Shown: piece by piece, positions 13,689 to 31,606 of the stretch | How the letters are laid out: the number at the start of each line of letters is the position of its first letter | Position numbering within the stretch: the stretch's first letter is position 1 | DNA from: Ruania alkalisoli | GTDB taxonomy: Bacteria; Actinomycetota; Actinomycetes; Actinomycetales; Beutenbergiaceae | Assembly: GCF_014960965.1 (NCBI RefSeq) | Contig: NZ_CP063169.1 | Span: forward strand, 653,581 to 717,580 | DNA length: 64,000 nucleotides | Direction: 5' to 3' | Translations under genes and position numbers: made by a program | The notes under the pieces: generated by a model | What the model saw: only the letters and a program-made list of their open reading frames with translations | What the model was told of the DNA's origin: nothing | Database searches by the model: none

Positions 13689-14585
13689 ATGGTCGAACTG
13701 TTCACTGAGCCGGGCGCCGAACTGCGCCGCCTCTACACCGGCAGCGTCTGGGCAGAAGGCCCGATCTGGCTGCCCGGCCCCGCGACCGCCGGACGCGTGC
13801 GCTGGAGCGACATCCCCAACAACCGGATCCTCGAGCACGAACTGACCTCCGGGCGCACCCGCGTCTACTCCTCCGGCGCCGAGTACACCAACGGCCGCAC
13901 CCGCGATCTGACCGGTGCTGTGGTGCAGTGCTCGCACGGACGGCGCGCGGTCGAACGCGACAGCATCGACGCGACCCCCGCCCCGGTCACCCTGGTGGAC
14001 TCCTGGCAGGGCCACCGGTTCAACTCCCCGAACGACGTGGTGGTCGCCTCCGATGGCGCGATCTGGTTCACCGACCCGCCGTACGGGATCCTCACCAACA
14101 AGGAAGGCCGCCAGGCGCCCCAGGAGTATGGCGGCTGCTACGTCTTCCGCCTGGACGAGAGCACCGGCGAGGCAACCGCCATGGTTACCGACATGATTCA
14201 CCCGAACGGGCTGGCCTTCTCACCGGACGAGTCGGTCCTGTATGTCTCCGACACCGGGGAGGGGGCGCGCCATATCCGCGCCTACGACGTGCAGATTCCC
14301 GACGGCGGATCTCCCGTGTGCGTGAACGGCCGGGTCCTGGCCACGGTCCGCCCGGGCGCCTCCGACGGATTCCGCATCGACACCGAGGGCCGCATCTGGA
14401 CCTCCGCCGGCGACGGCGTGCAGATCTACTCGACCGAGGGTAATCACCTCGCCACGATCGAGGTGCCGGAGACCGTCTCCAACGTCTGCTTCGGCGGCCC
14501 CGACGGGCGGGAGCTGTTCATCACGGCCACGACAAGCCTGTATACGATCCGGGTCACCGCGACCGAGGCGCCACGGCCGGCTTGA
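13689..14585 (+). CDS. SMP-30/gluconolactonase family beta-propeller
   Basis: Protein of 298 residues from the ATG at 13689; an upstream in-frame ATG at 13650 lacks family similarity. The SMP-30 metal-site pattern is present: WAEGPIW near the N terminus, RFNSPNDVVV in the middle and SDGFRID near the C terminus, which supply Glu, Asn and Asp ligands. Enzymes of this family hydrolyse sugar lactones, but many members act on other lactones or esters. It faces the cyclodeaminase-like gene convergently, so it may or may not belong to the nitrogen-compound regulon that follows. No signal peptide. Confidence 0.82.
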   Translation: MVELFTEPGAELRRLYTGSVWAEGPIWLPGPATAGRVRWSDIPNNRILEHELTSGRTRVYSSGAEYTNGRTRDLTGAVVQCSHGRRAVERDSIDATPAPVTLVDSWQGHRFNSPNDVVVASDGAIWFTDPPYGILTNKEGRQAPQEYGGCYVFRLDESTGEATAMVTDMIHPNGLAFSPDESVLYVSDTGEGARHIRAYDVQIPDGGSPVCVNGRVLATVRPGASDGFRIDTEGRIWTSAGDGVQIYSTEGNHLATIEVPETVSNVCFGGPDGRELFITATTSLYTIRVTATEAPRPA

Positions 14586-14675
14586 GACACCGTTGAGGAT
14601 GCGTTGATGTGGCACCCAGCGTTGATCGCGATGCAGCACTCACCCGGTGCGGCCGCGTTGAAGAGCGTGGACCTT

Positions 14676-15221
14676 TTAGTCGGCGCCGGCGCGCGCGACC
14701 GTCCCTGACTCCGCTGCTGCTCGCGCGCCTGAGCCCGCTGCCAGGGTCGCCGCCCCGGTGATCTCGCTGGCCCGGATCACCGCGCCGGTGAGCTCGGCCG
14801 CCACGGCGACGTCCGCCCGGACCGCGGCATTGCCGATCACCTCCAGGCGGTCCAGATCAGGCAGCAAGCGCCGCGCCGCCGCACGGCATTCGCTCACCCG
14901 CGCGTGGGCCACCTCCACGGCCAGCTCGATCGCGGCCTCCCGGTGCCGCCGTTCCACCCGGGTGGTCTCCGGCAGCCGGAACGCCTCCGCGAACCGGGCG
15001 GAGGCGCGGGCATCGGCATCGATCAACTCGGTCGCCTCCTCCTGCACGGCCTCCGCACGGGCGGCGATCGCGCGGCTCTCGTCACTGTCCGGCGCGTAGC
15101 GGGCGACCATGCCCGTCAGGGCGGCGGCCAGGGCGAGTGCGGCCGCCGTCGCGGCACCACCCCCGGGGTCGGGACGGGCGGCCCCCAGGTCCCCGAGCCA
15201 TTGCGGATCGAACACGGCCAT
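14676..15221 (-). CDS. formimidoyltetrahydrofolate cyclodeaminase-like protein
   Basis: Protein of 181 residues, all-helical, matching the stand-alone FTCD_C/FchA fold (cyclodeaminase or methenyl-THF cyclohydrolase). The DPGGGAATAAALALA segment near residue 20 corresponds to the conserved PGGGS-type turn that binds the folate. Enzymes of this kind convert 5-formimino-THF to 5,10-methenyl-THF and ammonia. The start ATG at 15221 lies five bases after the stop of the cysteine hydrolase, with CAGGAGCAGG as ribosome site inside that gene, so it is the third gene of the amidase operon. Its presence suggests that the pathway releases a formimino or other one-carbon unit (inference). Confidence 0.78.
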   Translation of the reverse strand: MAVFDPQWLGDLGAARPDPGGGAATAAALALAAALTGMVARYAPDSDESRAIAARAEAVQEEATELIDADARASARFAEAFRLPETTRVERRHREAAIELAVEVAHARVSECRAAARRLLPDLDRLEVIGNAAVRADVAVAAELTGAVIRASEITGAATLAAGSGARAAAESGTVARAGAD

Positions 15222-15226
15222 GTCGA

Positions 15227-16012
15227 TCAGCCCTGCTCCTGTGCCGCCAGTGCCGCCTCCAGGTCGGACCCGAGAGCCGTGAACCCGAAGCACTGTCGCA
15301 CGTTGTACACCGTTGCCTGCATGCAGAACTCCGGGCTCGTGGTGCCCACGCCGTCCTCCAGCATCACCACGTCATATCCCAGGTTCGCGGCATCGGTGAG
15401 CGTGGCCAGTACGCACTGGTCGGCGTTCACCCCTGCAAAGAGAAGCGTGTCCACCCGCAGATTCCGCAGGATCGAATCCAACGGTGAGTCCGGGAAGCCG
15501 CTCATCCGGTACTTGTCCACGCACACGTCCTCGGGTGCGATCTCGAGCTCGTCAACCACGGCCGCGGCCCAGGCGTCTGTGGTCAGCACCGGGCTCCCGG
15601 AGGGCGAAGCGGTCGAGCCGATGCCGCCGCCGGTGCCATCGCCGTCGTAGACGTGCCGCACCCCGGGTGGCAGGTTCGCCTGGTCGGGCCGGTTCCCCCA
15701 GTTCACCCACACCACCGGCACGCCGGCCTCGCGCAGCACCGGCAGCAGTCCGGCGATCGGCGCGATCGGCTCGCGGGCACCACTGATGTCCACGCCAATC
15801 CCAGCCAGCCACCCCTGCGGGTGGCAGAAGTCGTTCTGCATGTCCACCACCACGACGGCGGTCCTCGCCAGGTCCAGCACGAGCCGTTGCGGATGGGCCG
15901 CCACGGTGAGCGGCCGTTCCGGCCGCGGTGGGCGCCGCAGGTCGACGGCGTCCGGGGAGAGCCCCCACCGGTTGCGCTCGAGTGCCGGTGCAGGCGGTGC
16001 TGTCGTCGTCAT
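15227..16012 (-). CDS. isochorismatase-family cysteine amidohydrolase
   Basis: Protein of 261 residues with the Asp-Lys-Cys triad of the family: D57 in VVDMQND, K167 in DKYRMSGF and C200 in NADQCV. The N-terminal extension with PPRPERPLTV resembles the ureidoacrylate/biuret/N-carbamoylsarcosine hydrolase branch rather than true isochorismatases. These enzymes remove a carbamoyl or amide group and release ammonia and CO2. The gene follows the AtzH-amidase gene by ten bases with an AAGGA ribosome site and precedes the cyclodeaminase-like gene. The substrate is not fixed by sequence, but a ureido (N-carbamoyl) intermediate is the best guess. Confidence 0.8.
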   Translation of the reverse strand: MTTTAPPAPALERNRWGLSPDAVDLRRPPRPERPLTVAAHPQRLVLDLARTAVVVVDMQNDFCHPQGWLAGIGVDISGAREPIAPIAGLLPVLREAGVPVVWVNWGNRPDQANLPPGVRHVYDGDGTGGGIGSTASPSGSPVLTTDAWAAAVVDELEIAPEDVCVDKYRMSGFPDSPLDSILRNLRVDTLLFAGVNADQCVLATLTDAANLGYDVVMLEDGVGTTSPEFCMQATVYNVRQCFGFTALGSDLEAALAAQEQG

Positions 16013-16022
16013 CGTGTCCTTC

Positions 16023-17615
16023 TCATCGGTCCAGCATGTCGAGCAGGCTCAGGTCACTGCCGGGCGGCCCGATCAGGGAGAGCCCGGCAGGCAACGGCCC
16101 CACGCGCGGCGTCGGTGCGCTCACCTGGGGGAAGCCGGCCAGCGAGGCCAGGCACGTCAGCCGCAGCGTTCCGGCGCGGGCGGTGGCGATCTCCTCCTCG
16201 CTCGCATCCCGCACCGGAGCGGGAGCCGAGGTGGTGGGCAGCGCAAGAGCGGCGTCGTCGAGCAGGTCGCGCAACTGGTCGCGCGCGTGGTCGAGCACCG
16301 TGCGGGCGGAGGTGACGGCTTGGGCGCTCACCTGTGCACCGGTCCGGAAGCGTTCACGCACCGCCGGATCGAGCGATTCGCCATGGTGGGAGACGAACCC
16401 GCCGTGCATCGCCCAGGCCTCCGCCTGCTGCACGATACGGAAGGCGGTGAACCAGGTTTCCAGCTCCTCCGGGTCGAGATGCACCTGGCTGACGTCGGCG
16501 GGGATGGCCCGGAGTGCGGCGATCGTCGCGGTTTGCGTCTCCTGCTCGGCCAGGGCCAGGAGCGCCGGGGCGAAGATCAGGCGGGTCACGGCGGTGGGGG
16601 CGGAGGTGGGCAGCAGTGCGGCCGACGCGGCGCGCAGGGTGGCGATGTCACGGGTGAGCACGCCCACGGTGTCGAAGGACGGGGCGAGGCCGAGTAGGCC
16701 ACGGCGCGGGACGTCGTCGTGGGTGGTGCGCAGGCCGTACAGGCCGCAGTAGGCGGCCGGCACCCGGATCGAGCCGGCGGTGTCCGTGCCGAGCCCGATG
16801 GTGGCGGCGCCGGTGGCCACGGCGGCGGCCGGTCCGCTGGTGGAACCGCCGGGGATGCGGCCGGGAGCGGCGGGGTTGGGGGGCGTGCCGTAGTGGATGT
16901 TGGTGCCGGCGAGGGAGAACGCCAGCTCGTCGGTGTGGGCGATGCCGATCACGTCCGCCCCGGCTTGCGTGAGCAGCTCCACGGCCGCCGCATGGCGCTG
17001 TTCCGTCGGTGCCTGGGCGAGCCAGGCCGGCGTGCCGCCGCCGATCTGCTGCCCGGCGATGGCGAACAGATCCTTGACGGCGACGCTCGCCCCGGTCAGG
17101 GGTCCTCCGGGCCTGCCTGAGACGAGCGGGGACGATCCGGGTGGAACCCGCCAGATAGTCGAGTCGGAGCCGGAGAGCAGGCGGATCGTCGCAGCGCGCC
17201 ACTCTTCGCCTGGGCCGTCACTAGAGACGTGGGCGGCGGTGACCTGCCACCGGCCCTCCAGGAGCTCCCAGACCTGCGTCTGCACCCCGGTCGAACCCGT
17301 GGGGCGAATGGACTCGGCCACCACCAGCGTGCACCCGGGGCCGAGGTTGCGTAGGTGCACGCGTGTCAGTCGCCGTTGGGGTGCCCCGCCGCGGGCGGCG
17401 CGCATCCGGGCGATGTGCGCGTGACCGACCAGGGTGGCGCCGCCGGTGGAGCGCAGTGTGGTGGTGCTCGCGGCGAAGAGGTCGTCCAGTGCGGCGACGT
17501 CGTCGGCCATCAACGCAGTCTCGTAGCGCCAGAACGCGCGCTCCAGCTCCCGGTCGGGCCAGGCTGGGTTTGGTCCGAGGGGCTCCTCGAGGGGGCTGGG
17601 TGGGTCGGCAATCAT
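16023..17615 (-). CDS. AtzH-like domain fused to amidase-signature hydrolase
   Basis: Protein of 530 residues. Residues about 20-135 form an NTF2-like DUF3225/AtzH domain (RAFWRYETALMADDVAALDDLF, then WQVTAAHVS); from about 165 an amidase-signature domain follows, with the Ser-cisSer-Lys triad at K181 (VAVKDLF), S258 (PGGSTSG) and S282 (DTAGSIRVP). In cyanuric acid degraders AtzH is a separate small protein that assists the AtzE amidase on carboxybiuret, so the fusion points to ureide- or biuret-type substrates (inference). The ATG at 17615 is preferred; an in-frame GTG lies 12 bases upstream. It is first in a three-gene operon and has an operator-like dyad 32 bases upstream. Confidence 0.83.
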   Translation of the reverse strand: MIADPPSPLEEPLGPNPAWPDRELERAFWRYETALMADDVAALDDLFAASTTTLRSTGGATLVGHAHIARMRAARGGAPQRRLTRVHLRNLGPGCTLVVAESIRPTGSTGVQTQVWELLEGRWQVTAAHVSSDGPGEEWRAATIRLLSGSDSTIWRVPPGSSPLVSGRPGGPLTGASVAVKDLFAIAGQQIGGGTPAWLAQAPTEQRHAAAVELLTQAGADVIGIAHTDELAFSLAGTNIHYGTPPNPAAPGRIPGGSTSGPAAAVATGAATIGLGTDTAGSIRVPAAYCGLYGLRTTHDDVPRRGLLGLAPSFDTVGVLTRDIATLRAASAALLPTSAPTAVTRLIFAPALLALAEQETQTATIAALRAIPADVSQVHLDPEELETWFTAFRIVQQAEAWAMHGGFVSHHGESLDPAVRERFRTGAQVSAQAVTSARTVLDHARDQLRDLLDDAALALPTTSAPAPVRDASEEEIATARAGTLRLTCLASLAGFPQVSAPTPRVGPLPAGLSLIGPPGSDLSLLDMLDR

Positions 17616-17646
17616 GGTGGTGCTCACCTTCCCGACGCTAACCCCG

Positions 17647-17667
17647 GGTGTTGACCGGGCGAACATC
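17647..17667. promoter_or_regulatory. candidate operator 1 of the XRE-cupin regulon
   Basis: The site holds TGTT (17649-17652) and AACA (17662-17665) separated by exactly nine bases, in the form TGTTGA...GAACAT. The same spacing occurs in the sites at 19168-19188 and 29043-29063. It lies 32 bases upstream of the AtzH-amidase start, where a promoter would be expected. This is the weakest of the three copies. Confidence 0.5.
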
Positions 17668-17705: not shown

Positions 17706-17780
17706 GCGACTGACACAGCTGCGTGGGGTGCGGGCTCATGCTGCCGCAGACCGACGGATCCGTGTCGAGCCGATCAGGGC
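17706..17780. repeat. intergenic repeat, copy A
   Basis: A 75-base stretch beginning GCGACTGACACAG and ending GTGTCGAGCCGATCAGGGC aligns with the stretch at 31625-31698 over its whole length with one gap; by eye about three quarters of positions agree. It overlaps the last bases of the PNPOx-like gene and lies downstream of that minus-strand gene. A role in ending transcription, or a dispersed repeat family, is possible. Confidence 0.55.
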
Positions 17781-18385
17781 AGGGTGTCCACGACGCGCCA
17801 GGCATCCGCGCCGTCCGGCCGGGTGAAGCGGGTCTTGGTCGGGGGTGTGTCCTCGGTGCCGGCCTGCCAGAAGTCGATCCGCCGGGGTGAGAGCTCCAGC
17901 GTGGTCCAACCGGCGGGCCGGGTCAGCGGTTCACGCGAGGCCGCCGCATCGAAGCGCTCCCGGATCCGGGTCTGATCGATTTCCCCGTCCGTTCCGGGCT
18001 CCTGGGTCGCGAGATCCTGATAGGCCCAGGCCACGAGCTGCAGTTGCCGGGGCCGGGTGGGGTAGGCAGCGTCGGAGACCTCGGCCGGGAGCTCGCGGGC
18101 GGTACCGGTCAGGATCACCTGCCGGCCGAGGGCCGGCCAGTGGAAGACGGCGCTGACGCGGGGGTTGGCGGCGATGTCCTCGGTCTTGCTGGTCGGGGTC
18201 GAGGAGTGGAACCGCAGGCCTTGGTGGCCGATCTGGGTCACCAGCACCGTCCTGGCGTGCGGGGCGCCCGCGGCATCGGCGGTCGCGAGCGTCATCGTGC
18301 TCGGAAGGGGAAGGCCGGCGGCATCGGCTTCGGCGACCCAGCGGTCGAGGATCGGTAGCGGGGCGCCGGTGAGGTTCTCGGGCAC
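17774..18385 (-). CDS. pyridoxamine 5'-phosphate oxidase family flavoprotein
   Basis: Protein of 203 residues resembling PdxH: MTLATADAAGAPHARTVLV, RFHSSTPTSKTEDIAANPRVSAVFHW and the C-terminal FWQ...R segment correspond to FMN- and PLP-contacting parts. The start is a GTG at 18385 with AAGGAGA five bases upstream. PdxH makes pyridoxal 5'-phosphate, but several residues of the PdxH C terminus appear altered, so another FMN-dependent oxidoreductase role is possible. It lies between the regulator and the amidase operon on the same strand, and may belong to the regulon. Confidence 0.72.
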   Translation of the reverse strand: MPENLTGAPLPILDRWVAEADAAGLPLPSTMTLATADAAGAPHARTVLVTQIGHQGLRFHSSTPTSKTEDIAANPRVSAVFHWPALGRQVILTGTARELPAEVSDAAYPTRPRQLQLVAWAYQDLATQEPGTDGEIDQTRIRERFDAAASREPLTRPAGWTTLELSPRRIDFWQAGTEDTPPTKTRFTRPDGADAWRVVDTLP

Positions 18386-18484
18386 GTGCTCTCCTTGGAT
18401 GCAGGGGGGTGAGGGAATGCTCAGGTGCAGGGGAGTGCCCCGCACGTGCCGGCGTGTGGTCCGGATGTGGGGCCAGGTCGTTCG

Positions 18485-19108
18485 TCAGGCGCTCTTGGGG
18501 CCGTCCGGTGTGTGCACCACCAGCACCACGCTCGGGTCCGGCCCGTGCCGGCGGAACCTGTGATCGGTCTCGCCGGCATAGCCGATCGAGTCCCGCGGGC
18601 CGAGGGTGGTGATGGTGGAGATGCCTTGATCGTCGAGGATCTCCACGTCGATCGAGCCGGAGACCACGTAGAGCAGCTCGTGGCGGGAGTGGCGGAAGAA
18701 GTCCTCGAACTGGGGCGGTGCGCCGAGGAACTCGGTGACCCCGGTGCCGCTGGGTGTCTGCATCAGCAGCCGTGCCCCTCCGGAGTCGACATCGACCAGC
18801 GGCGCCGCGCTGCCGCGTTGCACCTCGTCCGAGGGTGGCCGTGCGGCGGCCAGCAACTCCTGTTGCGTGGTGCCCAGCGCCTGCGCGATCTGGAACAGCG
18901 AACGCATCGACGGCCGGGCGCGGCCGTGCTCGAGCTGAGACAGAAACGGGTGGGAGAGGCCGCTGGCGGCGCCGACCTGCACGAGGGTCATCCCGCGCTC
19001 CTTCCGTGCGGTGCGGATGGCGGCACCGAGCAGCACGTCGGCTTCCGACTGTTTCGTCGGTTGTCTCCTGCGCGTTCTGCGCGGGCTCTTCGGCGCGGTG
19101 GTCGTCAT
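18485..19108 (-). CDS. XRE-family regulator with C-terminal cupin sensor
   Basis: Protein of 207 residues. After a basic tail, residues about 25-85 form an XRE helix-turn-helix (IRTARKERGMTLVQVGAASG, LSQLEHGRARPS), and residues about 105-190 a small cupin (HELLYVVSGSIDVEIL, GPRDSIGY, DHRFRRHG). Such HTH-cupin regulators bind a small metabolite in the barrel; relatives include PuuR-type regulators of amine catabolism. The ATG at 19108 is chosen over a GTG two codons earlier. The gene is divergent from the metallohydrolase operon, with the 21-base dyad at 19168-19188 between them, so it probably controls both itself and the surrounding catabolic genes. Confidence 0.85.
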   Translation of the reverse strand: MTTTAPKSPRRTRRRQPTKQSEADVLLGAAIRTARKERGMTLVQVGAASGLSHPFLSQLEHGRARPSMRSLFQIAQALGTTQQELLAAARPPSDEVQRGSAAPLVDVDSGGARLLMQTPSGTGVTEFLGAPPQFEDFFRHSRHELLYVVSGSIDVEILDDQGISTITTLGPRDSIGYAGETDHRFRRHGPDPSVVLVVHTPDGPKSA

Positions 19109-19167
19109 GTTCACACATCCGGTGCTGATCGGTTACGCCAGCGAAATAGTCGCTGCTTACGTTGCTC

Positions 19168-19215: not shown

Positions 19216-20283
19216 ATGCAGGTTCAGACAACCAGCTCGTGCGTCGAGGCGATGAGCGGCTGGTATCCGGCCGGCTCGGCGGACGTGTCGAGTTCAGGAG
19301 CCGGCACCCCTCGTGGCCACCGCACCCACCCCGCCGTGATCCCCGAGCCGGAGGACCAGATCGCGATGTCCCGACCTGCCGGCCACGCCCGTGCCGCCGA
19401 CTGGTTCGACGTCCGCGACCTCGGGGGCGGGCAGCTGATCGCCGAACCCGGCCACGTCAACAGCTATCTCCTCACCGGCCGCGAACGCGCCCTTCTCATC
19501 GACTCCGGGATGGGCATCGCGCCGATCAGCGAGATCGTCGCTGATCTGACGACGCTGCCGGTGCTGGTGGTCTCCACCCATGCGCACGCCGATCACCGCG
19601 GCGGCCACGCCGACCTCGCCCGCGCCCACCGGGAGGGCCGACTGGAGGTGGCGGGATTCGCCGCGCACCCTTCCTCCCAGCTCGTGGAGGTCGACGCCGC
19701 CTTCCTGGCCCGTTACGCCCGGGTCATGCGCGAGGTCGTGGCCGAGCACCACACGCTGCGCGAGATCGACGACCAGTCCTTCTTCGCTCTCGCCGGCCTG
19801 CCGCGCATGCGGGACCTACCCGACCTGCGTCGCTGGCAGATCCCCGCGACCCCAGCCAGCGTCCCCCTCGCTGACAGGCAGCGGATCGACCTCGGTGGCC
19901 GCATCGTGACGATCCTGCACACACCCGGCCACGCACCGGACGCCCTGAGCGTCTGGGAGGAAGCCACCGGCACCCTTGTCACCGGCGACACGGTCCTCAG
20001 TGCCGCTCATTGGTTGCACGGATCTGAGGCCGATCTGACGGCGTTCGCGGCCTCAACGGCCCGCCTCGCCGCCCTCGGGGCACAGCGGGCGCTGGTCGCG
20101 CACAATCTGCGTCCGGAGATGCCCGGTACTCACGTCCGGAACGTGGCCGCGGCCGCCGAGGCCGTTCTGGACGGCGTCACTCGCCCCGTGCCGGGGCGTG
20201 ACCTGCTCGGGGGTCGGGCCTGGCGGCACGAGCACGACGGCGTCGTGATCCTGACCGATGCGACGTCCGGAGGGCCACGATGA
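19216..20283 (+). CDS. metallo-beta-lactamase fold hydrolase
   Basis: Protein of 355 residues with the metal motif THAHADH (H122, H124, D126, H127) and the glyoxalase II-like HTPGHAPDALSVW and TGDTVLSAAHW segments, which supply further ligands. It would be a zinc- or iron-dependent hydrolase; lactone, thioester or ring-opening activities are all possible. The ATG at 19216 has GGGAGG four bases upstream. An ATG at 19366, with GGAGGA, is an alternative and would remove a low-complexity tail. The gene is first of a seven-gene plus-strand operon, and its stop overlaps the start of the amidohydrolase by four bases. Confidence 0.8.
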   Translation: MQVQTTSSCVEAMSGWYPAGSADVSSSGAGTPRGHRTHPAVIPEPEDQIAMSRPAGHARAADWFDVRDLGGGQLIAEPGHVNSYLLTGRERALLIDSGMGIAPISEIVADLTTLPVLVVSTHAHADHRGGHADLARAHREGRLEVAGFAAHPSSQLVEVDAAFLARYARVMREVVAEHHTLREIDDQSFFALAGLPRMRDLPDLRRWQIPATPASVPLADRQRIDLGGRIVTILHTPGHAPDALSVWEEATGTLVTGDTVLSAAHWLHGSEADLTAFAASTARLAALGAQRALVAHNLRPEMPGTHVRNVAAAAEAVLDGVTRPVPGRDLLGGRAWRHEHDGVVILTDATSGGPR

Positions 20284-21770
20284 CCGGCCCTGCAACCGGC
20301 CCAGTCTCGTTGGGTGCCCCCGACGCATGGGCGGACCTCACCGGCACCGTGGTCACAAGCCTGTGCGGAGTACGTCTGCTCGACGGCACGATCGCCGACC
20401 TCACCCTCGCTGGCGGCACGATCACCGCGGTCACACGTGCCGGCGCCGGGCCTGAGGCGACGACTGGGCGCGGTGCAGCCACAGCGGCCAGCGGCACGCG
20501 TGATGCCCCCGGTGCCCCCGGTGCCCCCGGTGCACTCGGTGCACTCGGAGCGGTCGAGTCGACCGGAGTTCTCGACGCCACCGGTTGGCGGTTCGTCCCG
20601 GCCGCGAGCGAACCCCACGCTCACCTCGACAAGGCGCTGACGGCGAACCGGATCCCGCCCGGGACCGGGCACGACCTGGTCGGGGCAATCGACGCCTGGC
20701 GGTCCATCACCCCGACCATTGACGCCGGTGACATCACTACCCGCGCACGGGCCACCGTCGGGCGCTATCTCGCCCGCGGCATCACCACGGTGCGCACGCA
20801 CGTGGACGTTCACATGACGGGCGACCCGCTGCGCGGGGTGGACGCCCTGGTGGCCCTGCGCGAACAGCTACGTGGGACGCTCACGCTGCAGGTGTGCCTG
20901 CTCGCGGGTGAGCATGCCCCGGACGCGGTGGTCGCCGAGGCTGTCGACCACGGCATCGACGTGATCGGTGGCTGCCCGCACCTGGCCAGCGACCCGCGGC
21001 ACGAGACCACCCGCATGCTCGACCTCGCCGAACGGACCGGCCTGCCCGTCGACCTGCACACCGACGAGCAGACCACCCTCGACGAAAGAAGCGGCGTTCC
21101 TGACATAGCCGACCTCGCCCAGCAGGTGCTCGCCCGAGGGCTGATCCAGCGCGTCACCGCCAGCCACTGCGTGCGCCTGGGCTCCCTGCCCCCGGCGGAT
21201 CTCGCCCCCGTGCTCGACGTGGTGGCGCGCGCGGGCCTGGGAATCGTCACCCTCCCGATCACCAACCTCTACCTCCAGGGCTGGCATGACACCCGCCTCA
21301 TACCCCGCGGGATCGCCCCGCTGCGGGCGATCCTCGATGCGGGCATCGACCTGGCCGCCGGGGCAGACAATCTGCGCGACCCGTTCAACCCGGTTGGGCG
21401 GGCCGACCCCTTCGAGACGACCTCGTTGCTTGTGAGCGCCGGGCACCTGCGCCCGGAGGAGGCGCTTGCGGCGGTCACCACGTCCGCCCGGACCGTGCTC
21501 GGTCTGCCGCCGGTGGGCGCCACACCCGGTGCGGCCGCCGACTTCCTGCTGGTGCCCGATGCCGACCTCGGGGAGGTGATCGCAGGCGGGACCACCGCGC
21601 GCGTCGTGGTCTCCGGAGGCCGGGTAGTCGCCGACACCCGGGTGCGCAGCTCCCTCGATCACCCTGCCCTCGACCCCACAGAGTCCAGACCTCGCGGTGC
21701 CACGGCCACGGCACCCACGACGACCCCGTCATCCACCCCCACTCGTCGCCCCACCCCGATCGGAAGGTGA
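20280..21770 (+). CDS. cytosine deaminase-like (CodA/AtzC type) amidohydrolase
   Basis: Protein of 496 residues. Metal-binding HAHLDK (H113, H115), VRTHVDV, the LHTDEQ motif (like HCDE in CodA), TASHC and the C-terminal GADNLRDPFNPVGRADP match cytosine deaminases, isocytosine deaminases and N-isopropylammelide hydrolase AtzC. It would hydrolytically deaminate a ring amino group. Between the first beta-strands and the metal site there is an Ala/Pro/Gly insert at residues 75-92 encoded by GGTGCCCCC-type tandem repeats, and the C terminus is a disordered Thr/Pro tail. It sits between the metallohydrolase and the ABC ATPase, so it is likely the first cytosolic step after uptake (inference). Confidence 0.82.
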   Translation: MTGPATGPVSLGAPDAWADLTGTVVTSLCGVRLLDGTIADLTLAGGTITAVTRAGAGPEATTGRGAATAASGTRDAPGAPGAPGALGALGAVESTGVLDATGWRFVPAASEPHAHLDKALTANRIPPGTGHDLVGAIDAWRSITPTIDAGDITTRARATVGRYLARGITTVRTHVDVHMTGDPLRGVDALVALREQLRGTLTLQVCLLAGEHAPDAVVAEAVDHGIDVIGGCPHLASDPRHETTRMLDLAERTGLPVDLHTDEQTTLDERSGVPDIADLAQQVLARGLIQRVTASHCVRLGSLPPADLAPVLDVVARAGLGIVTLPITNLYLQGWHDTRLIPRGIAPLRAILDAGIDLAAGADNLRDPFNPVGRADPFETTSLLVSAGHLRPEEALAAVTTSARTVLGLPPVGATPGAAADFLLVPDADLGEVIAGGTTARVVVSGGRVVADTRVRSSLDHPALDPTESRPRGATATAPTTTPSSTPTRRPTPIGR

Positions 21771-24906: not shown

Positions 24907-26259
24907 ATGACGGAGCGCACCATCGCCGAGCGCACCGCACGACTCGCCGGCCTCCTCGCCCTCGAGCTGGGACCGGACGCCGTTTCCACCGATCCCGAAC
25001 TGGTCCGGAAGGTCTCCTCGGACTGGTCGAAGATGTCGCCGATCCTGGCCGAGAAGGTGCCCGCCGGGCGCTACCTGGCTGACCTGGTGGTCCGGCCCAG
25101 CACACCGGAGGAGGTGCCGGTCATCCTGGCGCTCGCCTACGACGCCCGTGTTCCGGTCACCCCCCGGGGTGCCGGGACCGGGAACTACGGGCAACTGACC
25201 CCCTTCGACGGCGGGATCACCCTCGACCTGCGGGGGCTGGACCACATCGCCGTGGAGGGCGACCTGGTCCGGGCCGGAGCGGGTGCCAAGCTCACTGCCA
25301 TCGACGTCGCGGGCCGGGCGGCCGGGCGCGATATCTGGATGTTCCCCTCCACCAAGGGCTCCACCATCGGCGGCTTCCTCGGTGGCGGCAGCGCCGGCAC
25401 CGGCACGATCGCCCGGGGGACCACCGGCGATGGCTGGGTGGAGTCACTGACCGTGGCGCCGATGGACGGCAGCGGACGCTCCGTCGTCGTGACGGGCGAC
25501 GAAACCCAGGCCTATATTCACGCCTACGGGGTGACGGGTGTGATCACCGAGGCGGTCGTGCGCACCGACCCTGCCCGGGAGTGGGTGGCGATATACGCAG
25601 CGCTGCCCACCTATGAGGCTCTGGTCTCGGTGCACCGGTCCCTCCTGGACCTGCCGGTCCTGCCGCGGCTGGCTTCCGGGGACGAACCGGCTTTGGTGGC
25701 CACGCTGCCCGCGGACGTCGAGCTGGATCCGGCCTCCTACAGTCTGCGGGTGATCGCCGAGGTCTCCACGGTCTCGGAGATCAGCCGCCGTGTCGGGGCC
25801 GCCGGGGGAGAGGTGGTCGGTGTGCTGGAGGACTATGCCGCGACCGACAAGCTCTCCTCCCAGTCCTACAACCACCCGATCTACTACTGGCAGCAGGCTG
25901 TGGGTGAACCCACCTGCTTCCACCTGGAGACCGGGGGGACGGTCCTGTGGGACGACCCGGACGCCGTCCGGGCGGTCTACGGGCCGAGCACCAGGCTGCA
26001 CCTGGAACTCATGGGCAGCCAGCCGCTGGCGATGGTGGTGGCCGACTACGAGAGCGAGGAGCAGGTGCTCGCTGGTATCCCGCGGCTGGAGGCGGCGGGA
26101 CTCGGGGTGCACTCCCCGCACCAGTGGTACGTCGACCGCAACGTGGAGTTGGTGCTCGAGACGGTGAAGCGCACCGACCCGCGTGGCCTGCTCAATCCCG
26201 GCAAGCTGGACACCTCGCTCGCCCGGCCCGACACACGCACCACGATCGGAGCCCGCTGA
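24907..26259 (+). CDS. FAD-linked oxidase (PCMH/FAD_binding_4 family)
   Basis: Protein of 450 residues. Residues about 60-230 form the PCMH-type FAD-binding domain: VVRPSTPEEVPVILALA, TPRGAGTGNYGQ and the STKGSTIGGFLGGGSAG flavin loop. The C terminus ends with the usual RTDPRGLLNPGKL. The family oxidises alcohols, hydroxy acids or C-H bonds next to heteroatoms. It starts three bases after the binding-protein stop and overlaps the creatininase start, so it belongs to the same operon. A likely role is an oxidation step on the imported compound or an intermediate (inference). Confidence 0.82.
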   Translation: MTERTIAERTARLAGLLALELGPDAVSTDPELVRKVSSDWSKMSPILAEKVPAGRYLADLVVRPSTPEEVPVILALAYDARVPVTPRGAGTGNYGQLTPFDGGITLDLRGLDHIAVEGDLVRAGAGAKLTAIDVAGRAAGRDIWMFPSTKGSTIGGFLGGGSAGTGTIARGTTGDGWVESLTVAPMDGSGRSVVVTGDETQAYIHAYGVTGVITEAVVRTDPAREWVAIYAALPTYEALVSVHRSLLDLPVLPRLASGDEPALVATLPADVELDPASYSLRVIAEVSTVSEISRRVGAAGGEVVGVLEDYAATDKLSSQSYNHPIYYWQQAVGEPTCFHLETGGTVLWDDPDAVRAVYGPSTRLHLELMGSQPLAMVVADYESEEQVLAGIPRLEAAGLGVHSPHQWYVDRNVELVLETVKRTDPRGLLNPGKLDTSLARPDTRTTIGAR

Positions 26260-27035
26260 TGCCGGCACCCCGCTTCGTCGACCTGACGTTCCCCGAGGTC
26301 GCCGAGCTGCCCGAGGGCACGGTCGCGGTCCTCCCGCTCGGGGCGATCGAGCAGCACGGCCCGCACTTGCCGGTTTCGACCGACTACGTCACCGCCACCT
26401 CGGCCGCTGAAGCAGCGGTGGCCGAGGTGGCCGAGGCCGGCGCGGCGCCGGTGGTGCTGCTGGAGGGCCTGGCCTACACCAAGTCCGATGAGCACCACTG
26501 GGCGCCGGGCACGATCTGGCTCTCGTGGGACACGCTCATGCGCACTCTGGTGGACATCGGGCGCTCGCTGCAGACCTCCGGGATCACCCGGTTGGTGTTC
26601 GTCAACGGGCACGGCGGGAACTCAGCACTGGGGCAGGTGACGTGCCGGGAACTGCGGCGCCAGTTCGGGCTGGCGACGTTCTTCGCGCACCTGTCCGTGC
26701 CGGGGGACCAGGTGCGGGACGTGTCGAACCCGCACGAGCTGGGCCTGGGCATCCATGGCGGGCACAGCGAGACGTCCCTGATGCTGCACCTGCGCCCGGA
26801 CCTGGTGAAGATGGACCGCGCCGTGCGGCGGGTGCCCGAACAGTTGACCGCCTATGAGCAGATCGGGTTCGGCAAGCCCGTCAGCTTCGGGTGGCTCTCG
26901 GACGATTTCGGGCCCGACGGGCACATCGGCGACCCGACTACGGCTACTGCCGACGCCGGCAAGGTGCTGTTCGAGGCCGGAGTGCAGCGATTGGCTGCCG
27001 CGATCGTCGAGGCGAGTACCTTCCGGGTGCGGTGA
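26259..27035 (+). CDS. creatininase-family amidohydrolase
   Basis: Protein of 258 residues with the metal-site signatures of the family: LGAIEQHGPHLP with STDYV, HHWAPGTIWLS, NGHGGN and GIHGGHSETS. Members include creatininase, the FAPy deformylase ArfB and MftE, all of which cut an amide or formamide using two metals. The start overlaps the oxidase stop (TGATG), and it is the last gene of the seven-gene operon. Neither creatinase nor sarcosine oxidase genes are nearby, so creatinine is not assured as the substrate. A long hairpin follows 66 bases later. Confidence 0.85.
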   Translation: MPAPRFVDLTFPEVAELPEGTVAVLPLGAIEQHGPHLPVSTDYVTATSAAEAAVAEVAEAGAAPVVLLEGLAYTKSDEHHWAPGTIWLSWDTLMRTLVDIGRSLQTSGITRLVFVNGHGGNSALGQVTCRELRRQFGLATFFAHLSVPGDQVRDVSNPHELGLGIHGGHSETSLMLHLRPDLVKMDRAVRRVPEQLTAYEQIGFGKPVSFGWLSDDFGPDGHIGDPTTATADAGKVLFEAGVQRLAAAIVEASTFRVR

Positions 27036-27286: not shown

Positions 27287-28414
27287 TCAGAGCTCGGCCA
27301 GATCGGCCTTCCGGATCTTTCCGTGCACGCCGCACACCCGGTCCACCACCTGCGAGACGGCGAAGTCCCCTGCCGCCGAGAGGTAGGCGTAGGCGTGCGC
27401 GGTATCCATCCCGCGGCCAGTCAACAACGTCAGCGCCGAGCGCACGCACGCCCGCATCGCCTCGTCCAGATCGGCATCCAGCCCCACGGGCACCAGCAGC
27501 TCCGGCGTCTCGGCCCAGATCATCGGCGGGTGCGGCAAGGACTCAGCCGGGATCACCTCGAAGCGGAGCCGTGCACGCAACGGCGCCTCGAACGCCGTCA
27601 GTGCCACCTCGCCGTCCCCCTGCGCGAAGTGTGGATCGCCCACGTATGCCAGCGCGCCGGGCACCTGCACCGGCAGGTAGAGCGTCGACCCGGCCGTGAG
27701 CAGGGAGATGTCCAGGTTGCCGCCGTGCGGTCCAGGCGGCACTGAATGCGCGCGCTCCGACCCGGCCGTCGCTACCCCCATCGTGCCGAGGAACGGGCGG
27801 AGAGGGAAGCGCACCGTGGCCTCGCTCCGGGCGCTGGCTGCCATATGGCCGTACGCCGTCGTCGTCGCGTCGCCTGAACCCCCGGGGCCCGTCCAGCACG
27901 GCACCGAGACGACGTCCTCACCCCCGGCCGGGAGTTCCTCCGGCAGCGCACCGCGCCCGTGCCGGTTGGAGACCAGCCCGTAGTCGCAGCGCAGCGCCAG
28001 ATCCAGCACGGTGATCGCCAGCACGTCCCCGGGCCGGGCTCCCCGCACGTGTACCGGACCGGTCACCACGTGCGGACCCTGGGTCGCAGGGTCGTGCGGC
28101 ACCATCGCCGCGATCTCGACCGCATCGGTCAGCACCCGCTCCGCCGGCACGCCCAGGCCTGCGAAGTAGGCGAGCGGGTCGCGCCCCTGATCCTCCAGGA
28201 TTCCCTCGTGCGAGACGGTATCGATCACCAGCTCCTCGCCCCGGTTGACCTCGACGACGGCCCTGTCAGTCCCGCACGGCAACTCGCCCCACAGCACGGT
28301 CGCCGGGGTTGCCGGCAGGTAGCCCGGGCGTGGTGAGTCCGGTTGCAGGACGGGAGGGCCGCCGTCGGGAATCCGGATGGACGGGGTGGTCATGGCGGGT
28401 GGGGAGGCGGGCAT
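27287..28414 (-). CDS. acetamidase/formamidase family protein
   Basis: Protein of 375 residues matching FmdA/AmdA: ELVIDTVSHEG, HVVTGPVHVRGARPGDVLAITVLD, then the mid-protein GPHGGNLDI and GDPHFAQGDGEVALTAFE segments. These enzymes hydrolyse formamide or short amides to the acid and ammonia. Start at 28414 with a GGAGAG element; an ATG seven codons later is also possible. It follows the flavin reductase gene by 24 bases on the same strand. In this setting it would recover ammonia and formate from formamide released by ring opening (inference). Confidence 0.85.
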   Translation of the reverse strand: MPASPPAMTTPSIRIPDGGPPVLQPDSPRPGYLPATPATVLWGELPCGTDRAVVEVNRGEELVIDTVSHEGILEDQGRDPLAYFAGLGVPAERVLTDAVEIAAMVPHDPATQGPHVVTGPVHVRGARPGDVLAITVLDLALRCDYGLVSNRHGRGALPEELPAGGEDVVSVPCWTGPGGSGDATTTAYGHMAASARSEATVRFPLRPFLGTMGVATAGSERAHSVPPGPHGGNLDISLLTAGSTLYLPVQVPGALAYVGDPHFAQGDGEVALTAFEAPLRARLRFEVIPAESLPHPPMIWAETPELLVPVGLDADLDEAMRACVRSALTLLTGRGMDTAHAYAYLSAAGDFAVSQVVDRVCGVHGKIRKADLAEL

Positions 28415-28438: not shown

Positions 28439-28996
28439 TCAGGGTAGACGAGGCAGGCGGTGGAATGCCCGGTCGCCGTAGGCAAGCATGGACTGCGCGG
28501 TCCCGGGGGTACCTGCGCTGCCCGGGCTGGCGTGCACGGCCCCGACGGCGCCCACAATCAGCAGGTGGTCACCGGCCTCGGTGGTGGAGTTGATCGTGCA
28601 CTCCACGGCATGCGCGGCGTGCCGGTCCAGCCACGGCAGCCCCGTCCCAGTGCGGGTGTAGCCGGTGCGGTCGAACTTGTCGATGGCGCGCGAGGCGAAG
28701 ACGGCGGCGGCCTCCTCGGCGTCGCCGTGCAGGATGTTCGCCACGAACGCGCCGCGTTGCAGTAGCACCGGTAGCGTGCGGGCGCGCAGATCGATGCAGA
28801 GCCCGAACATCGGAGGGGTCACCGAGACCGAGAATCCGGTGCTGACCGTCAGCCCGCTGGGGGTGCCCTCGGAGTCTGCGGTGGTGATCACGCAGACTCC
28901 GGCCGGGAGGGTGGACATCGCCCGGCGGAACTGGGCGCTCCGCTCCTGAGTCTCGTGGCTGTCTACGTGGTGTGCCGGCCGGGCTGTCACGGTCAT
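28439..28996 (-). CDS. flavin reductase-like FMN-binding protein
   Basis: Protein of 185 residues of the HpaC/RutF split-barrel family: FRRAMSTLPAGVCVITT, GLTVSTGFSVSVTPPMFGLCI and FVANILHGDAEE are conserved flavin-contacting parts. It would supply reduced FMN or FAD to a two-component monooxygenase. No such monooxygenase is present in the window, so either the partner is elsewhere or the reductase serves the FAD-linked oxidase or another enzyme. A GAGGAC ribosome site precedes the ATG. First gene of a two-gene operon that starts at the perfect dyad at 29043-29063. Confidence 0.83.
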   Translation of the reverse strand: MTVTARPAHHVDSHETQERSAQFRRAMSTLPAGVCVITTADSEGTPSGLTVSTGFSVSVTPPMFGLCIDLRARTLPVLLQRGAFVANILHGDAEEAAAVFASRAIDKFDRTGYTRTGTGLPWLDRHAAHAVECTINSTTEAGDHLLIVGAVGAVHASPGSAGTPGTAQSMLAYGDRAFHRLPRLP

Positions 28997-29042
28997 ATCC
29001 CGTCCTCTCTGTCACTGACTCATCGTCGATGCGACGATCGCG

Positions 29043-29063: not shown

Positions 29064-29132
29064 GAGACTAGGGACCGGATGTTTCGCCCGCGTGACGGCA
29101 GCGCAATCTTCCGGTGACACGCGCGGCGGACG

Positions 29133-30572
29133 ATGACGCTCATGACCTCCTCCCGCCCGCTCCTGCTCACCCACGCGTTGCTGCTCCCGATGGCCGACGA
29201 TCCGCATGGCCTACCCGACTGGTTCCATGGCTGGATGCGCGTCGGCACCGACGGCCGCATCGAGTCTCTCGGCGAGGGTGATCCACCGGCCGACGCGCTC
29301 GTGGCCGGTGACGGCGGCCCGGTGGAGATCCTCAACGCCGCCGGTGCCATCGTCGCCCCGGGTTTCGTCTCCGCCCACTCGCACCTGTTCACCTCCGGGC
29401 TGCGCGGGATCGCCTCCGGATCGACCCTCTACCCCTGGGTGGGGGCCATGATGGAGGTCTTCGCGCAGACCGGCGCGGAGGACATGTACTGGTCCACCTT
29501 CCACGGCAGCCTCGACTTCCTTGCCAACGGCATCACCTCCGCCTACAACTTCACCCAGTCGCGGGTGACCTGGCGCTACGACGCGGCCGCGGCCCGGAAC
29601 GAGCTCGTCGGGGTCCACCCGCCCGAGTACCTCACCCGGCAGTTCGACGGTGCCCGTGACGCCGGCCTGCGCACCGTCCACGCCATCCGGCTCGATGACG
29701 AAGCGGCTCCCGAGTCCCAGGTCCGGGCGACGTTCGCGGACATGGTCGGCGCCGCGGCGGAGCACACGGGGCTTGAGCTGTACCTCGGCTCCTCGGTGAT
29801 GGGCGCCGTCCAGTGGGCTGCAGGCCCGCGTACCGCCGAGCTCGAGGCCGAGATGATGGCCGAGCACGGCATCACCAACCAGGCCCACTTCGTCGAGACC
29901 GCCGAGGGGATCGACGTGCAGCGCTCGAAGTTCGATTGGTACGTGCAGGCGGGCGCACTCGGGCCGGAGTTCCTCTTCGGTCACTTCATCCACCCGACGG
30001 ACGAGATGGTCGCCCAAGCCGCCCGCGCGGGCGCGCGAATGGTGTGGCAGCCGACCTCGAACGGCCGCCTCGGTTCCGGGGTGGCCGATGTGGTCCGCTA
30101 CCAGCGAGAAGGGATCGAGGTCGGCATGGGGTTGGATGATCAGTCCTGTACCGACATCTCCGACCCGTTCGCGAACATGCGTCTCGGGATGTACTCCCAG
30201 CGTGCCCTACACCACGAGGCGGCTGTGATGATGCCGCGGGAGGTGCTGCGCCTGCACACGCTGGGATCGGCGGAGGTGCTCGGGGTCGCCGACCGGGTGG
30301 GAAGCCTGGAGGTGGGCAAGTACGCCGACTTCGTGGTGGTCGATCCCCGGCGCCCGGACACCGGCCCGATCTGGGATGTGTATGCCACCTACGTGCTCGC
30401 GTGCGGACTGCGGAACCTGGCCCAGGTGTACGTCGGCGGGCGGCTCGTCAGCGAAGGTGGTGTGGCCACCGCTCCCGGTGCGGCCGACGCCCCCGCTGAA
30501 CTGGCCGAGCGCGTCACCGTGGCGGCGCACCGGGCCGGGATGCGGCTCGCCCTGGACGAGTCCACGCCATGA
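29133..30572 (+). CDS. AtzA/TrzN/8-oxoguanine deaminase-type amidohydrolase
   Basis: Protein of 479 residues of the metal-dependent aminohydrolase group that includes guanine and 8-oxoguanine deaminases, isoxanthopterin deaminase, AtzA and TrzN. Metal ligands are seen in APGFVSAHSH (H82, H84), the FGHFIHPTDEM segment and GLDDQS near the C terminus; a closing VADRVGSLEVGKYADFVVVD is typical. It would deaminate or dehalogenate a purine-, pterin- or triazine-like ring. It is divergent from the flavin reductase across operator 3, and its stop overlaps the next start by four bases. Second deaminase of the regulon, so the substrate may carry two exchangeable ring substituents (inference). Confidence 0.83.
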   Translation: MTLMTSSRPLLLTHALLLPMADDPHGLPDWFHGWMRVGTDGRIESLGEGDPPADALVAGDGGPVEILNAAGAIVAPGFVSAHSHLFTSGLRGIASGSTLYPWVGAMMEVFAQTGAEDMYWSTFHGSLDFLANGITSAYNFTQSRVTWRYDAAAARNELVGVHPPEYLTRQFDGARDAGLRTVHAIRLDDEAAPESQVRATFADMVGAAAEHTGLELYLGSSVMGAVQWAAGPRTAELEAEMMAEHGITNQAHFVETAEGIDVQRSKFDWYVQAGALGPEFLFGHFIHPTDEMVAQAARAGARMVWQPTSNGRLGSGVADVVRYQREGIEVGMGLDDQSCTDISDPFANMRLGMYSQRALHHEAAVMMPREVLRLHTLGSAEVLGVADRVGSLEVGKYADFVVVDPRRPDTGPIWDVYATYVLACGLRNLAQVYVGGRLVSEGGVATAPGAADAPAELAERVTVAAHRAGMRLALDESTP

Positions 30573-31606
30573 CGACCTCCCTGGCTCTCTCTACCGTCGG
30601 GGGTTGCCCCAAGCGTATGACCTACGGACCGTGCGGGGGAGTGGCCGCGGACGGAACCTGTGAGGTGACGCCCGAGCCCTGCCCGTTTGTGACTGAGGCG
30701 ACCGTGCCCTGGCCAGGACCGGGCCCGGCGACCACACCCCCGACGGCGGAGGGTCTTCAGATCCTCGACCTGCTGCAGCGCCGTCCGATCGTGGTGGCGG
30801 GGATGCCCGCCCGGGCCATGGACGTCGCCTCGGTTGAGGCGTGCGGGCGGCAGCTGGCGGGGCGGGTCGACGCCGTGCTCGCCGGTGACTCCGGGCGGGC
30901 GCGGGTGCAGTTCCCGCCCACCTACCGGGCCGAGCTGATCCGGCGGGCTGGATTGCGGGCGTGGCCGGGACTGAACTGCCGGGACCGCAACCGGGTGGCA
31001 TTGGAGGGAGAGCTGGCCGGGCTGGCTGCTGTGGGTGCGGCGGGAGTGCACTGCGTGACCGGCGATCACCCGGCCGGTGGGCACCGGCCGGACGCGCAGC
31101 CGGTCTTCGACCTGGAGTCGACCGAGCTGGTGGGGCTGGCACGTAAGCACGGGTTGCTGGTCTCGGTGGCCGAGTCCCCGGCGTCGCCCCCGGTGCATCG
31201 CCGGGCCGAGCGGCTGGCCGAGAAGGTGCGGGCCGGGGCGCAGCTGTGCTTGACCCAGTACTGCGGGGGAGCCGACGAGGTGAGGGCCTTCGTGGCAGCG
31301 ATGCGGCAGGCCGGGGCTGACGTGCCGCTGTTGCCCGGGGTTCCGGTGGTGCTGGACGTGCCCAGTGCTGAGCTGCTGGCCTCGTTCGCGGCCGCGGTGC
31401 TGCCGGCTGGCTATGTGGAGAGCGTGCTGACGGCGTCCGATCCGTTCCGCGCCGGCGTGGAAGCCGCCATCCGGTACGGGGAGGAACTGCTGGCCGTCGC
31501 CGGCGTGGCGGGTGTGGTGGTGGCTGGAGCCGCCGAGCACGGGACCGAGGAGGAGACCTCCGCCGCGATCGGGCAGATCAGCGCGGCGCTGGGTGGGGGG
31601 AGTTGA
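30569..31606 (+). CDS. MetV-like zinc module joined to MetF-like methylene-THF reductase barrel
   Basis: Protein of 345 residues. Residues 13-40 carry the Cys motif of the methylenetetrahydrofolate reductase C-terminal (MetV) domain: CPKRMTYGPCGG with C13 and C22, then CEV (C31) and CPF (C38). From about residue 60 a MetF-like TIM barrel follows (HCVTGDHPAGG, then LCLTQYCGGADEV). In most fused proteins the MetV part is at the C terminus; here it leads the barrel. The protein is coupled to the amidohydrolase by an ATGA overlap, so a folate-linked one-carbon or methyl transfer accompanies the deamination (inference). The exact reaction is not certain. Confidence 0.75.
   Translation: MTTSLALSTVGGCPKRMTYGPCGGVAADGTCEVTPEPCPFVTEATVPWPGPGPATTPPTAEGLQILDLLQRRPIVVAGMPARAMDVASVEACGRQLAGRVDAVLAGDSGRARVQFPPTYRAELIRRAGLRAWPGLNCRDRNRVALEGELAGLAAVGAAGVHCVTGDHPAGGHRPDAQPVFDLESTELVGLARKHGLLVSVAESPASPPVHRRAERLAEKVRAGAQLCLTQYCGGADEVRAFVAAMRQAGADVPLLPGVPVVLDVPSAELLASFAAAVLPAGYVESVLTASDPFRAGVEAAIRYGEELLAVAGVAGVVVAGAAEHGTEEETSAAIGQISAALGGGS

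Follow-up and report, generated by a model that had tools for sequence, protein, structure and literature searches.

The gene island described here, from the actinobacterium Ruania alkalisoli, resembles several known systems in part. The Rut pathway (RutA–F) likewise combines a flavin oxygenase, a flavin reductase and an enzyme of the ureidoacrylate-hydrolase type, and the versions of the island found in Pseudomonadota extend this likeness by a RidA-family protein. The biuret, triuret and cyanurate module (BiuH, AtzH, AtzE/F) shares with the island an isochorismatase-type hydrolase adjoining an AtzH-amidase. Pterin deaminase, represented by Arad3529 and the enzyme of Variovorax sp. F1, is an amidohydrolase acting on a cyclic amidine, as one deaminase of the island would be; Fan et al. 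(2013) reportedly identified Arad3529 as a pterin deaminase and raised the idea of a pterin degradation pathway not described till then. The flavin oxygenase structures 6v42 and 6v43 and the rhizobial operons encoding their relatives share with the island the flavoenzyme subfamily and a set consisting of a creatininase-family protein, a NitT/TauT-type ATP-binding cassette (ABC) importer, a cytosine-deaminase-like amidohydrolase, a flavin adenine dinucleotide (FAD) enzyme and a reductase. The island occupies 14.7–31.6 kb of the window, that is, of the whole 64,000-nucleotide stretch analyzed (contig NZ_CP063169.1, positions 653,581 to 717,580 of the forward strand), and gene calling by codon-position GC content together with Pfam and NCBIfam scans gave 16 genes in four transcription units. 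Our analyses confirm it as a real gene set, more than chance clustering, and most likely an actinobacterial variant, with a longer tail, of a core partly known in Pseudomonadota; we put the probability that it imports and degrades pteridines (pterins and folate breakdown products) at about 0.58.

The core forms a rightward unit starting at about 19366. A metallo-beta-lactamase-fold hydrolase (MBL; 19366..20283; PF00753, 65.9 bits; start predicted within an open frame from 19162) is followed by the cytosine-deaminase-like amidohydrolase CDA, a putative pterin/lumazine-type ring deaminase (20280..21770; PF01979, 48.2 bits), the NitT/TauT-type ABC ATPase (21774..22559; PF00005, 99.8 bits), the ABC permease (22556..23584; PF00528, 66.4 bits), a substrate-binding lipoprotein recognized by its modeled fold (23710..24903), the FAD_binding_4 flavoenzyme FADox of the vanillyl-alcohol oxidase (VAO) type, a putative pterin oxygenase (24907..26259; PF01565, 70.7 bits), and the creatininase-family hydrolase CREAT, a candidate ring opener (26259..27035; start predicted, open frame from 25947), all on the plus strand. 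Neighboring genes overlap by 1–4 bases or are spaced by 3 bases from MBL through CDA and the ATPase to the permease, and again from the binding protein through FADox to CREAT, the start of the last being a prediction. An earlier note, made from the sequence alone, had reported tight operons and named the protein families at about these places; both statements stand, the families being found by Pfam and NCBIfam and the binding protein by its fold.

To follow the set across genomes, we used the FADox gene as an anchor in an even sample of 246 genomes of the host's class and counted the neighbors found up to 10 kb away, in stretches no longer than 20 kb; for the window genome a congener (G251) was used instead, every match in its 40 kb being counted. 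The conservation counts come from genomes drawn by FADox alone. The gene was present in 19 of the 246 genomes, and close to it we found CDA in 17, the ATPase in 17, the permease in 18, the binding protein in 18 and CREAT in 15 of the 19 loci. Of the four loci lacking CREAT, three are short contigs (about 4 kb in L041 and in L190, 10.7 kb in L189); the fourth is that of G093, whose sole creatininase-family gene lies 10.6 kb off and falls outside the stretch. Further neighbors were a methylenetetrahydrofolate reductase (MTHFR)-like gene (12/19), a helix-turn-helix (HTH)-cupin regulator (8/19), MBL (7/19) and a pyridoxamine-phosphate-oxidase (PNPOx)-fold gene (6/19). For the adjacency of the creatininase gene in 15 genomes, chance was put at about 10^-32, a figure not used as a test, the pair having already been seen in most of them. 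A wider scan of genome contigs held at least 493 confirmed relatives, and within 10 kb of FADox the 80 named loci kept from it carried CREAT in 65 cases, the binding protein in 63, CDA in 60 and a PDR/VanB-type reductase in 36. For 38 actinobacterial loci that extend 6 kb or more to either side, the numbers were 37 for CDA, ATPase and permease alike, 38 for the binding protein, 34 for CREAT, 31 for the HTH-cupin homologue and 29 for the PNPOx homologue.

The same core extends beyond the host's phylum. A relative of the rhizobial FADox occurred at 26 places in 22 of 299 Pseudomonadota genomes (the central genome, G305, included), and in the 24 loci that cover 25 of these places we counted CREAT 22 times, the binding protein 21, the ATPase and the permease 20 each, CDA 19, RidA 19, a flavin mononucleotide (FMN) reductase 18 and the AtzH-amidase twice. 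FADox and CREAT were also neighbors in one Verrucomicrobiota locus (L123), one Chloroflexota locus (L110) and one of six cyanobacterial loci (L103). The core, comprising CDA, the NitT/TauT-type importer, the VAO-type FAD enzyme and CREAT, is kept as a group in Actinomycetota, Paenibacillaceae and Pseudomonadota. Closer to the host, the congener keeps the full island, its aligned parts being 88–100% identical, and G262 and G265, genomes from the host's family, have in the fetched stretches all island genes but the MTHFR-like one, with the order AMD_H–ISOCH–FTCD_C retained. The earlier note would have been refuted by related genomes not keeping the genes together; the core does not show this, and its being a catabolic unit for an imported N-heterocycle is well supported by cross-phylum conservation, the tail genes being patchy.

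The kinship of FADox is what points to pteridines in particular. Searched against the PDB, a profile of 15 island FADox sequences found 6v42 first, with 261 bits and an E value of 1.6e-76, the runner-up reaching 80 bits, and the AlphaFold model of FADox (predicted local distance difference test score, pLDDT, of 87.7) had 6v42 as its top fold match (E 5e-30, template-modeling score, TM, of 0.83; next match E 1.6e-23). Both proteins carry the motifs RG-GTGNYGQ, NH, HLE and PH, and the 6v42 entry is titled "Crystal structure of the flavin oxygenase with cofactor bound involved in folate catabolism". Among plasmids, the window FADox gave no match at E 1e-30; with the 6v42 stretch, relatives were found in 141 records, 109 of them from Rhizobium. 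The rhizobial proteins are about 66% identical to 6v42, and the operon around them carries the core of the island, a reductase and RidA. In R. brockwellii the order is creatininase, LysR, binding protein, ATPase, permease, "cytosine deaminase", FAD oxidoreductase, NAD(P)H oxidoreductase and RidA, of which LysR and RidA are on the opposite strand; XdhC/PaoABC adjoins the stretch. Palleronia, Alloyangia and Mameliella have the same gene set, and the operons of Pantoea and Klebsiella contain a PDR/VanB reductase, an amidohydrolase, RidA, a creatininase, a binding protein, ABC proteins and the FAD enzyme; no creatininase was seen in the Haematobacter stretch and no amidohydrolase in that of an Agrobacterium plasmid. 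The 120-kb Klebsiella pneumoniae plasmid p2B30155 (L131) bears a core-type operon with a creatininase, ABC, FAD enzyme, amidohydrolase, RidA and PDR/VanB reductase. Unlike the rhizobial operons, the island has no RidA that we could find, its regulator is of the HTH-cupin rather than the LysR or TetR type, and its tail adds ISOCH, AMD_H, FMDA, the MTHFR-like protein and FTCD_C.

In alignments, CDA keeps the amidohydrolase metal ligands (HxH, HxDE, H, D) and has another residue in place of the FPQ Gln of cytosine deaminase, which we take to be substrate-binding. The resemblance to cytosine deaminase amounts to 120 bits, and the best NCBIfam model, NF005759, gave 172 bits, below its cut-off of 403; with the same model, the Rhizobium deaminase passed at 703 bits and the Pantoea protein scored 220. 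In a tree of these enzymes, those of Pseudomonadota, Paenibacillaceae and actinobacteria fall apart, with the window CDA in the actinobacterial group, and cytosine deaminases join the second CDA-type copies of two Paenibacillaceae loci (L096, Paenibacillus piri, and L104, Cohnella) with support 100/100. The tree is unrooted, and if rooted on the cytosine-deaminase branch, the remaining island enzymes form one group. The second amidohydrolase of the island, AHYD2 (29133..30572, plus strand; PF01979, 116.5 bits), is an 8-oxoguanine/chlorohydrolase-type deaminase that matched the NCBIfam models PRK08204 and PRK08203 at about 140 bits, under their cut-offs.

In gamma-proteobacterial versions of the operon, the gene order itself recalls the surroundings of pterin deaminase. 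An amidohydrolase gene is followed by RidA in Pantoea (399 amino acids), in Klebsiella (427 amino acids) and in L177, and the Pantoea gene overlaps its RidA gene; older annotations call RidA proteins "endoribonuclease". In Variovorax sp. F1 an amidohydrolase of 399 amino acids deaminates folate and pteroate, and the 3' cloning primer was set in the conserved endoribonuclease genes that in V. paradoxus lie downstream of predicted pterin deaminase genes (PMC9513972). The window CDA is longer than that enzyme (496 amino acids) and in the tree falls into a separate actinobacterial group.

The hydrolases of the island suggest how a deaminated and oxygenated ring could be taken apart. CREAT matched PF02633 with 228.9 bits (cut-off 31.3), failed the creatininase equivalog TIGR04448 (107.8 bits, cut-off 235) and is the only creatininase-family gene in the entire window genome. 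ISOCH, an isochorismatase-superfamily cysteine hydrolase of RutB/BiuH-like type (15227..16012, minus strand; PF00857, 125.8 bits) and a candidate ureido hydrolase, found RutB (8bkd, 106 bits) as its best PDB match, with Asp, Lys and Cys positions aligned; we take these to be the catalytic residues of RutB, and two further RutB chains differ at the Asp or Cys position. Its score against the RutB model TIGR03614 was 127.5 bits, and 114.4 against the BiuH model; because the RutB cut-off, 377.95, is so far above this, we consider the enzyme RutB-like and not RutB, judging by sequence. Outside the genus, loci of four phyla encode ISOCH proteins 50–76% identical. AMD_H, an AtzH-like domain fused to an amidase (16023..17666, minus strand; PF11533, 69.6 bits; PF01425, 181.3 bits), just passed NF006169 (394.1 bits, cut-off 391). 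Beside a RutB-like gene or CREAT, four loci (L095, L103, L123, L176) have an S15 X-Pro-peptidase-like hydrolase, a small cupin or both; no AtzH-amidase was seen in L095, L103 and L123, where the S15-like hydrolase or cupin is a possible stand-in for the amidase.

Set against the described systems, the pathway logic is probably Rut-like by analogy. The luciferase-type RutA contrasts with the VAO fold of the island's FAD enzyme, the rhizobial RidA, like ISOCH with respect to RutB, falls far below the cut-off of its counterpart RutC, and the island goes beyond Rut in having a creatininase and a deaminase and in importing by ABC. With respect to the biuret and cyanurate module, no AtzD-type gene was recognized in the island, ISOCH is nearer to RutB than to BiuH, and the AtzH and amidase parts are fused.

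We infer the substrate, the order of steps and the bond cut by each enzyme as follows. The ring compound would be taken up by the NitT/TauT-type importer, and CDA, or AHYD2 for a differently oxidized pterin, would strip the 2-amino group at C2 to give a lumazine. FADox would then oxygenate the pteridine with reduced flavin from the flavin reductase FLRED, and possibly also from the PNPOx-fold protein. CREAT is proposed to hydrolyze a cyclic amide, presumably the N3–C4 lactam, yielding a (hydroxylated) 3-ureidopyrazine-2-carboxylate. RutB acts on ureidoacrylate, and because this product embeds H2N-CO-NH-C=C-COO- and RutB is the best solved relative of ISOCH, we propose that ISOCH removes its ureido part, freeing NH3 and CO2, in the way that RutB acts on (Z)-3-ureidoacrylate. 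The AtzH-amidase and the formamidase FMDA would finally hydrolyze amide or formamide pieces of the remaining pyrazine. The exact order is tentative and may well differ from the one given.

Several genes of the tail could serve such a route. FLRED (28439..28996; PF01613, 111.1 bits), which would provide the oxygenase with reduced flavin, and FMDA of the formamidase/acetamidase family (27287..28414; PF03069, 104.4 bits) form a leftward unit on the minus strand from 28996, and AHYD2 and the MTHFR-like gene (30569..31606, plus strand; PF02219, 53.3 bits; PF12225, 26.9 bits) form a rightward one from 29133. A further leftward unit on the minus strand, from 19114, consists of the HTH-XRE/cupin regulator (18485..19114; PF01381 and PF07883), the PNPOx-fold protein, a candidate flavin-binding partner (17774..18445; PF01243, 64 bits), AMD_H, ISOCH and, last, an FTCD_C-type protein of the cyclodeaminase/cyclohydrolase fold (14676..15221; PF04961, 80.3 bits, cut-off 24.5; start predicted). 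The regulator and the PNPOx-fold protein are additions to the gene list of the earlier note. The MTHFR-like protein shares the fold family PF02219 with MTHFR, covers profile positions 66–240 only, and carries an N-terminal CPK-M-GPCGG motif, a MetV-like cysteine motif; the regular MetF encoded elsewhere in the genome scores 237 bits, the island protein 53. Matched by eye, as MAFFT placed gaps at the MetF SFELYP (L043 and L044, with cut or misread N-termini, were dropped), all 10 island-type rows lacked Glu at the MetF SFE site, in a V-x-A-x-x-P-A stretch, and only two of the 10 kept the Gln of the TQ motif. The Glu is presumably the catalytic one, Glu28 in E. coli, and on these residues the protein is unlikely to be a methylenetetrahydrofolate reductase, although it may bind flavin. 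The FTCD_C gene directly follows the isochorismatase-type gene in G251, G262 and G265 too, and was found in none of the other loci searched. Because the MTHFR-like protein lacks the Glu and FTCD_C is confined to close kin, the one-carbon folate end that the earlier note had drawn from two tetrahydrofolate proteins is not supported. A bolder proposal is that the island mineralizes the pteridine ring completely and aerobically: once the ring is deaminated and oxygenated, CREAT would open the pyrimidine lactam to a 3-ureidopyrazine-2-carboxylate and the RutB-like enzyme would cut this product, while the MTHFR-like protein would have become a flavin enzyme for some pteridine or pyrazine intermediate, and not for folate one-carbon units; as a whole we consider this doubtful.

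The importer provides evidence on both sides of the pteridine reading. The best NCBIfam matches of the ATPase are taurine-, sulfonate- and nitrate-type ATPases, under their cut-offs, and the binding protein has no Pfam match and no PDB sequence match. Its AlphaFold model (pLDDT 89.1) is nearest to 4nmy (thiamin), 3ix1 (N-formyl-4-amino-5-aminomethyl-2-methylpyrimidine, FAMP) and 4esx (Thi5-type), which counts in favor of a pteridine substrate, yet these matches are distant (11–16% identity; the best two 14–16%, with TM 0.56–0.57 by query length), and taurine and sulfonate binders come further down the list. Other points weigh against a pteridine substrate. FADox is just 31% identical to the rhizobial enzyme, which by sequence is far enough for a changed substrate, and the folate link of 6v42 is its entry title, no paper on it having been found among those listed. 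The CDA tree includes no proven pterin deaminase sequence and gives no position of the island enzymes with respect to such an enzyme. A reductase near FADox, present in the window as FLRED, was found in 18 of 24 Pseudomonadota, five of 19 class-sample and 44 of 80 named loci, so that no FLRED-, FMNR- or VanB-type reductase was seen in 14 of the 19 and 36 of the 80; RidA was found in none of the 19 and in five of the 80. Most tail genes are absent near FADox in most of the 19 class-sample loci (AMD_H present in five, FMDA in four, AHYD2 in three, FLRED in two). ISOCH likewise was seen in a minority of the fetched loci (5/19, 3/24 and 8/80), and the ureido-removal step would therefore be either not universal or encoded elsewhere. 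Finally, no gene cutting folate into pterin and p-aminobenzoyl-glutamate was recognized in the island.

The best-surviving alternative, which we consider unlikely, is that the substrate is a purine-derived ring such as 8-oxoguanine, a hydantoin such as glycocyamidine, or another side product of the urate pathway. After the deaminase, FADox would oxidize a ring carbon to give a trione, CREAT would convert this to oxalurate, and ISOCH and an HpxZ/AtzE-like AtzH-amidase would finish. The gene surroundings fit a purine/pteridine setting, which we count in favor of the pteridine reading: within 10 kb in the 80 named loci we found 8-oxoguanine-deaminase-like genes in 38, uricase in 11, XdhC in nine and MoCoBD proteins in six. 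When one representative of each cluster was scanned, 8-oxoguanine-deaminase-like, xanthine-dehydrogenase-type, uricase, 5-hydroxyisourate hydrolase, 2-oxo-4-hydroxy-4-carboxy-5-ureidoimidazoline decarboxylase and allantoinase genes lay beside the core in Microbacteriaceae or Paenibacillus. Eight actinobacterial loci have GuaD-type zinc motifs by motif scan, one Verrucomicrobiota locus has a Pfam-confirmed GuaD-fold enzyme directly upstream of FADox–CREAT, and the AtzH domain of AMD_H matches HpxZ, at 65.8 bits against a cut-off of 135. In one study, biuH-like genes next to amidases, one of them near a creatininase-like gene, are discussed in terms of purine breakdown (PMC12625717). However, genome-wide searches of the window genome found neither a uricase nor a MoCoBD (xanthine dehydrogenase type) protein, confirming the absence of urate oxidase stated by the earlier note, so that the island has to do without them; the absence of creatinase, hydantoinase, RutA and barbiturase, also stated there, applies to the window only. 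Of the 28 genomes examined, 19 had a uricase and nine showed none, and the 6v42 entry title names folate. As background that we did not use as evidence, a Mycobacterium smegmatis study lists a formamidase, uricase and a creatininase-subfamily gene as induced by nitrogen limitation (PMC4617892).

Distinctly less probable is another pyrimidine-type or creatinine-like compound, be it the pyrimidine of thiamine (with acetamide or formamide for FMDA), a cytosine derivative or creatinine. The thiamin- and FAMP-binding proteins nearest to the binding-protein model, the cytosine-deaminase likeness of CDA and the membership of CREAT in PF02633 speak for it; the missing FPQ Gln of CDA and the creatininase score of CREAT, less than half its cut-off, speak against it, and no thiaminase-, creatinase- or sarcosine-type gene was recognized in the island. 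Among the pyrimidine, pterin, creatinine-like and triazine-like candidates of the earlier note, pterin is favored, with the creatinine-like and triazine-like ones less likely.

The island might also consist of separate nitrogen-scavenging operons lying side by side, the core and the tail (ISOCH, AMD_H, FMDA, FLRED, AHYD2 and MTHFR) acting on different compounds. The tail genes have operons of their own and most are patchy in the class sample, the MTHFR-like gene in 12 of 19 loci apart, and one genome (G256) has homologues of FMDA, AMD_H and AHYD2 with no FADox in its fetched 40 kb. Against this, tail genes recur beside the core in Streptomyces, in Frankia-type genomes (those of the sample family that holds a Frankia sp. 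record) and in Paenibacillus, and ISOCH adjoins FADox–CREAT in one cyanobacterial locus and two Pseudomonadota genomes, leaving the separation very unlikely. The classical creatinine, urate and uracil routes can be set aside, as the creatininase and RutB scores are below their cut-offs and the genome has neither uricase nor a MoCoBD protein.

The borders of the island differ from those first given. The earlier note's start, 13689, falls inside an SMP-30/gluconolactonase gene (13650–14585, plus strand) that outside the window genome was found beside the island in the congener G251 alone, and we rejected this gene as well as the adjoining PIN-domain gene (13200–13616) as parts. To the right, 31725–36432 holds a LacI regulator, a glycoside hydrolase family 1 (GH1) beta-glucosidase and two sugar-type ABC permeases, which beyond 31606 look like a separate beta-glucoside cluster, judged unrelated. 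Further left, two very long adjoining leftward frames (5632–12902) encode a UvrD-helicase-like product of 1253 amino acids and a neighbor of 1170; our guess is an AddAB/AdnAB-like pair. Elsewhere, a luciferase-type monooxygenase (LLM) gene was seen in loci L044, L069, L093, L187 and L191 (Frankia-type, Klenkia and Trebonia).

Returning to pteridines as the preferred substrate, we note that almost all organisms make pterins, folate among them. The earlier note knew of no described pathway with this gene combination. For the core this needs amending, as it matches the operons of 6v42 relatives, and one pterin deaminase followed by a comparable gene has been characterized, in work that traces folate to deaminopteroate (PMC9513972). 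For the full pathway the statement stands, in that we found no description in the literature searched, which mostly excluded subscription papers. If correct, the complete mineralizing route would be a "Rut pathway for pterins". For the breakdown of the pterin ring in soil, the island offers candidates for the genes that take up and oxygenate the compound, open its ring and remove the ureido group; the core is present in at least three bacterial phyla, and the question is testable with a handful of purified proteins.

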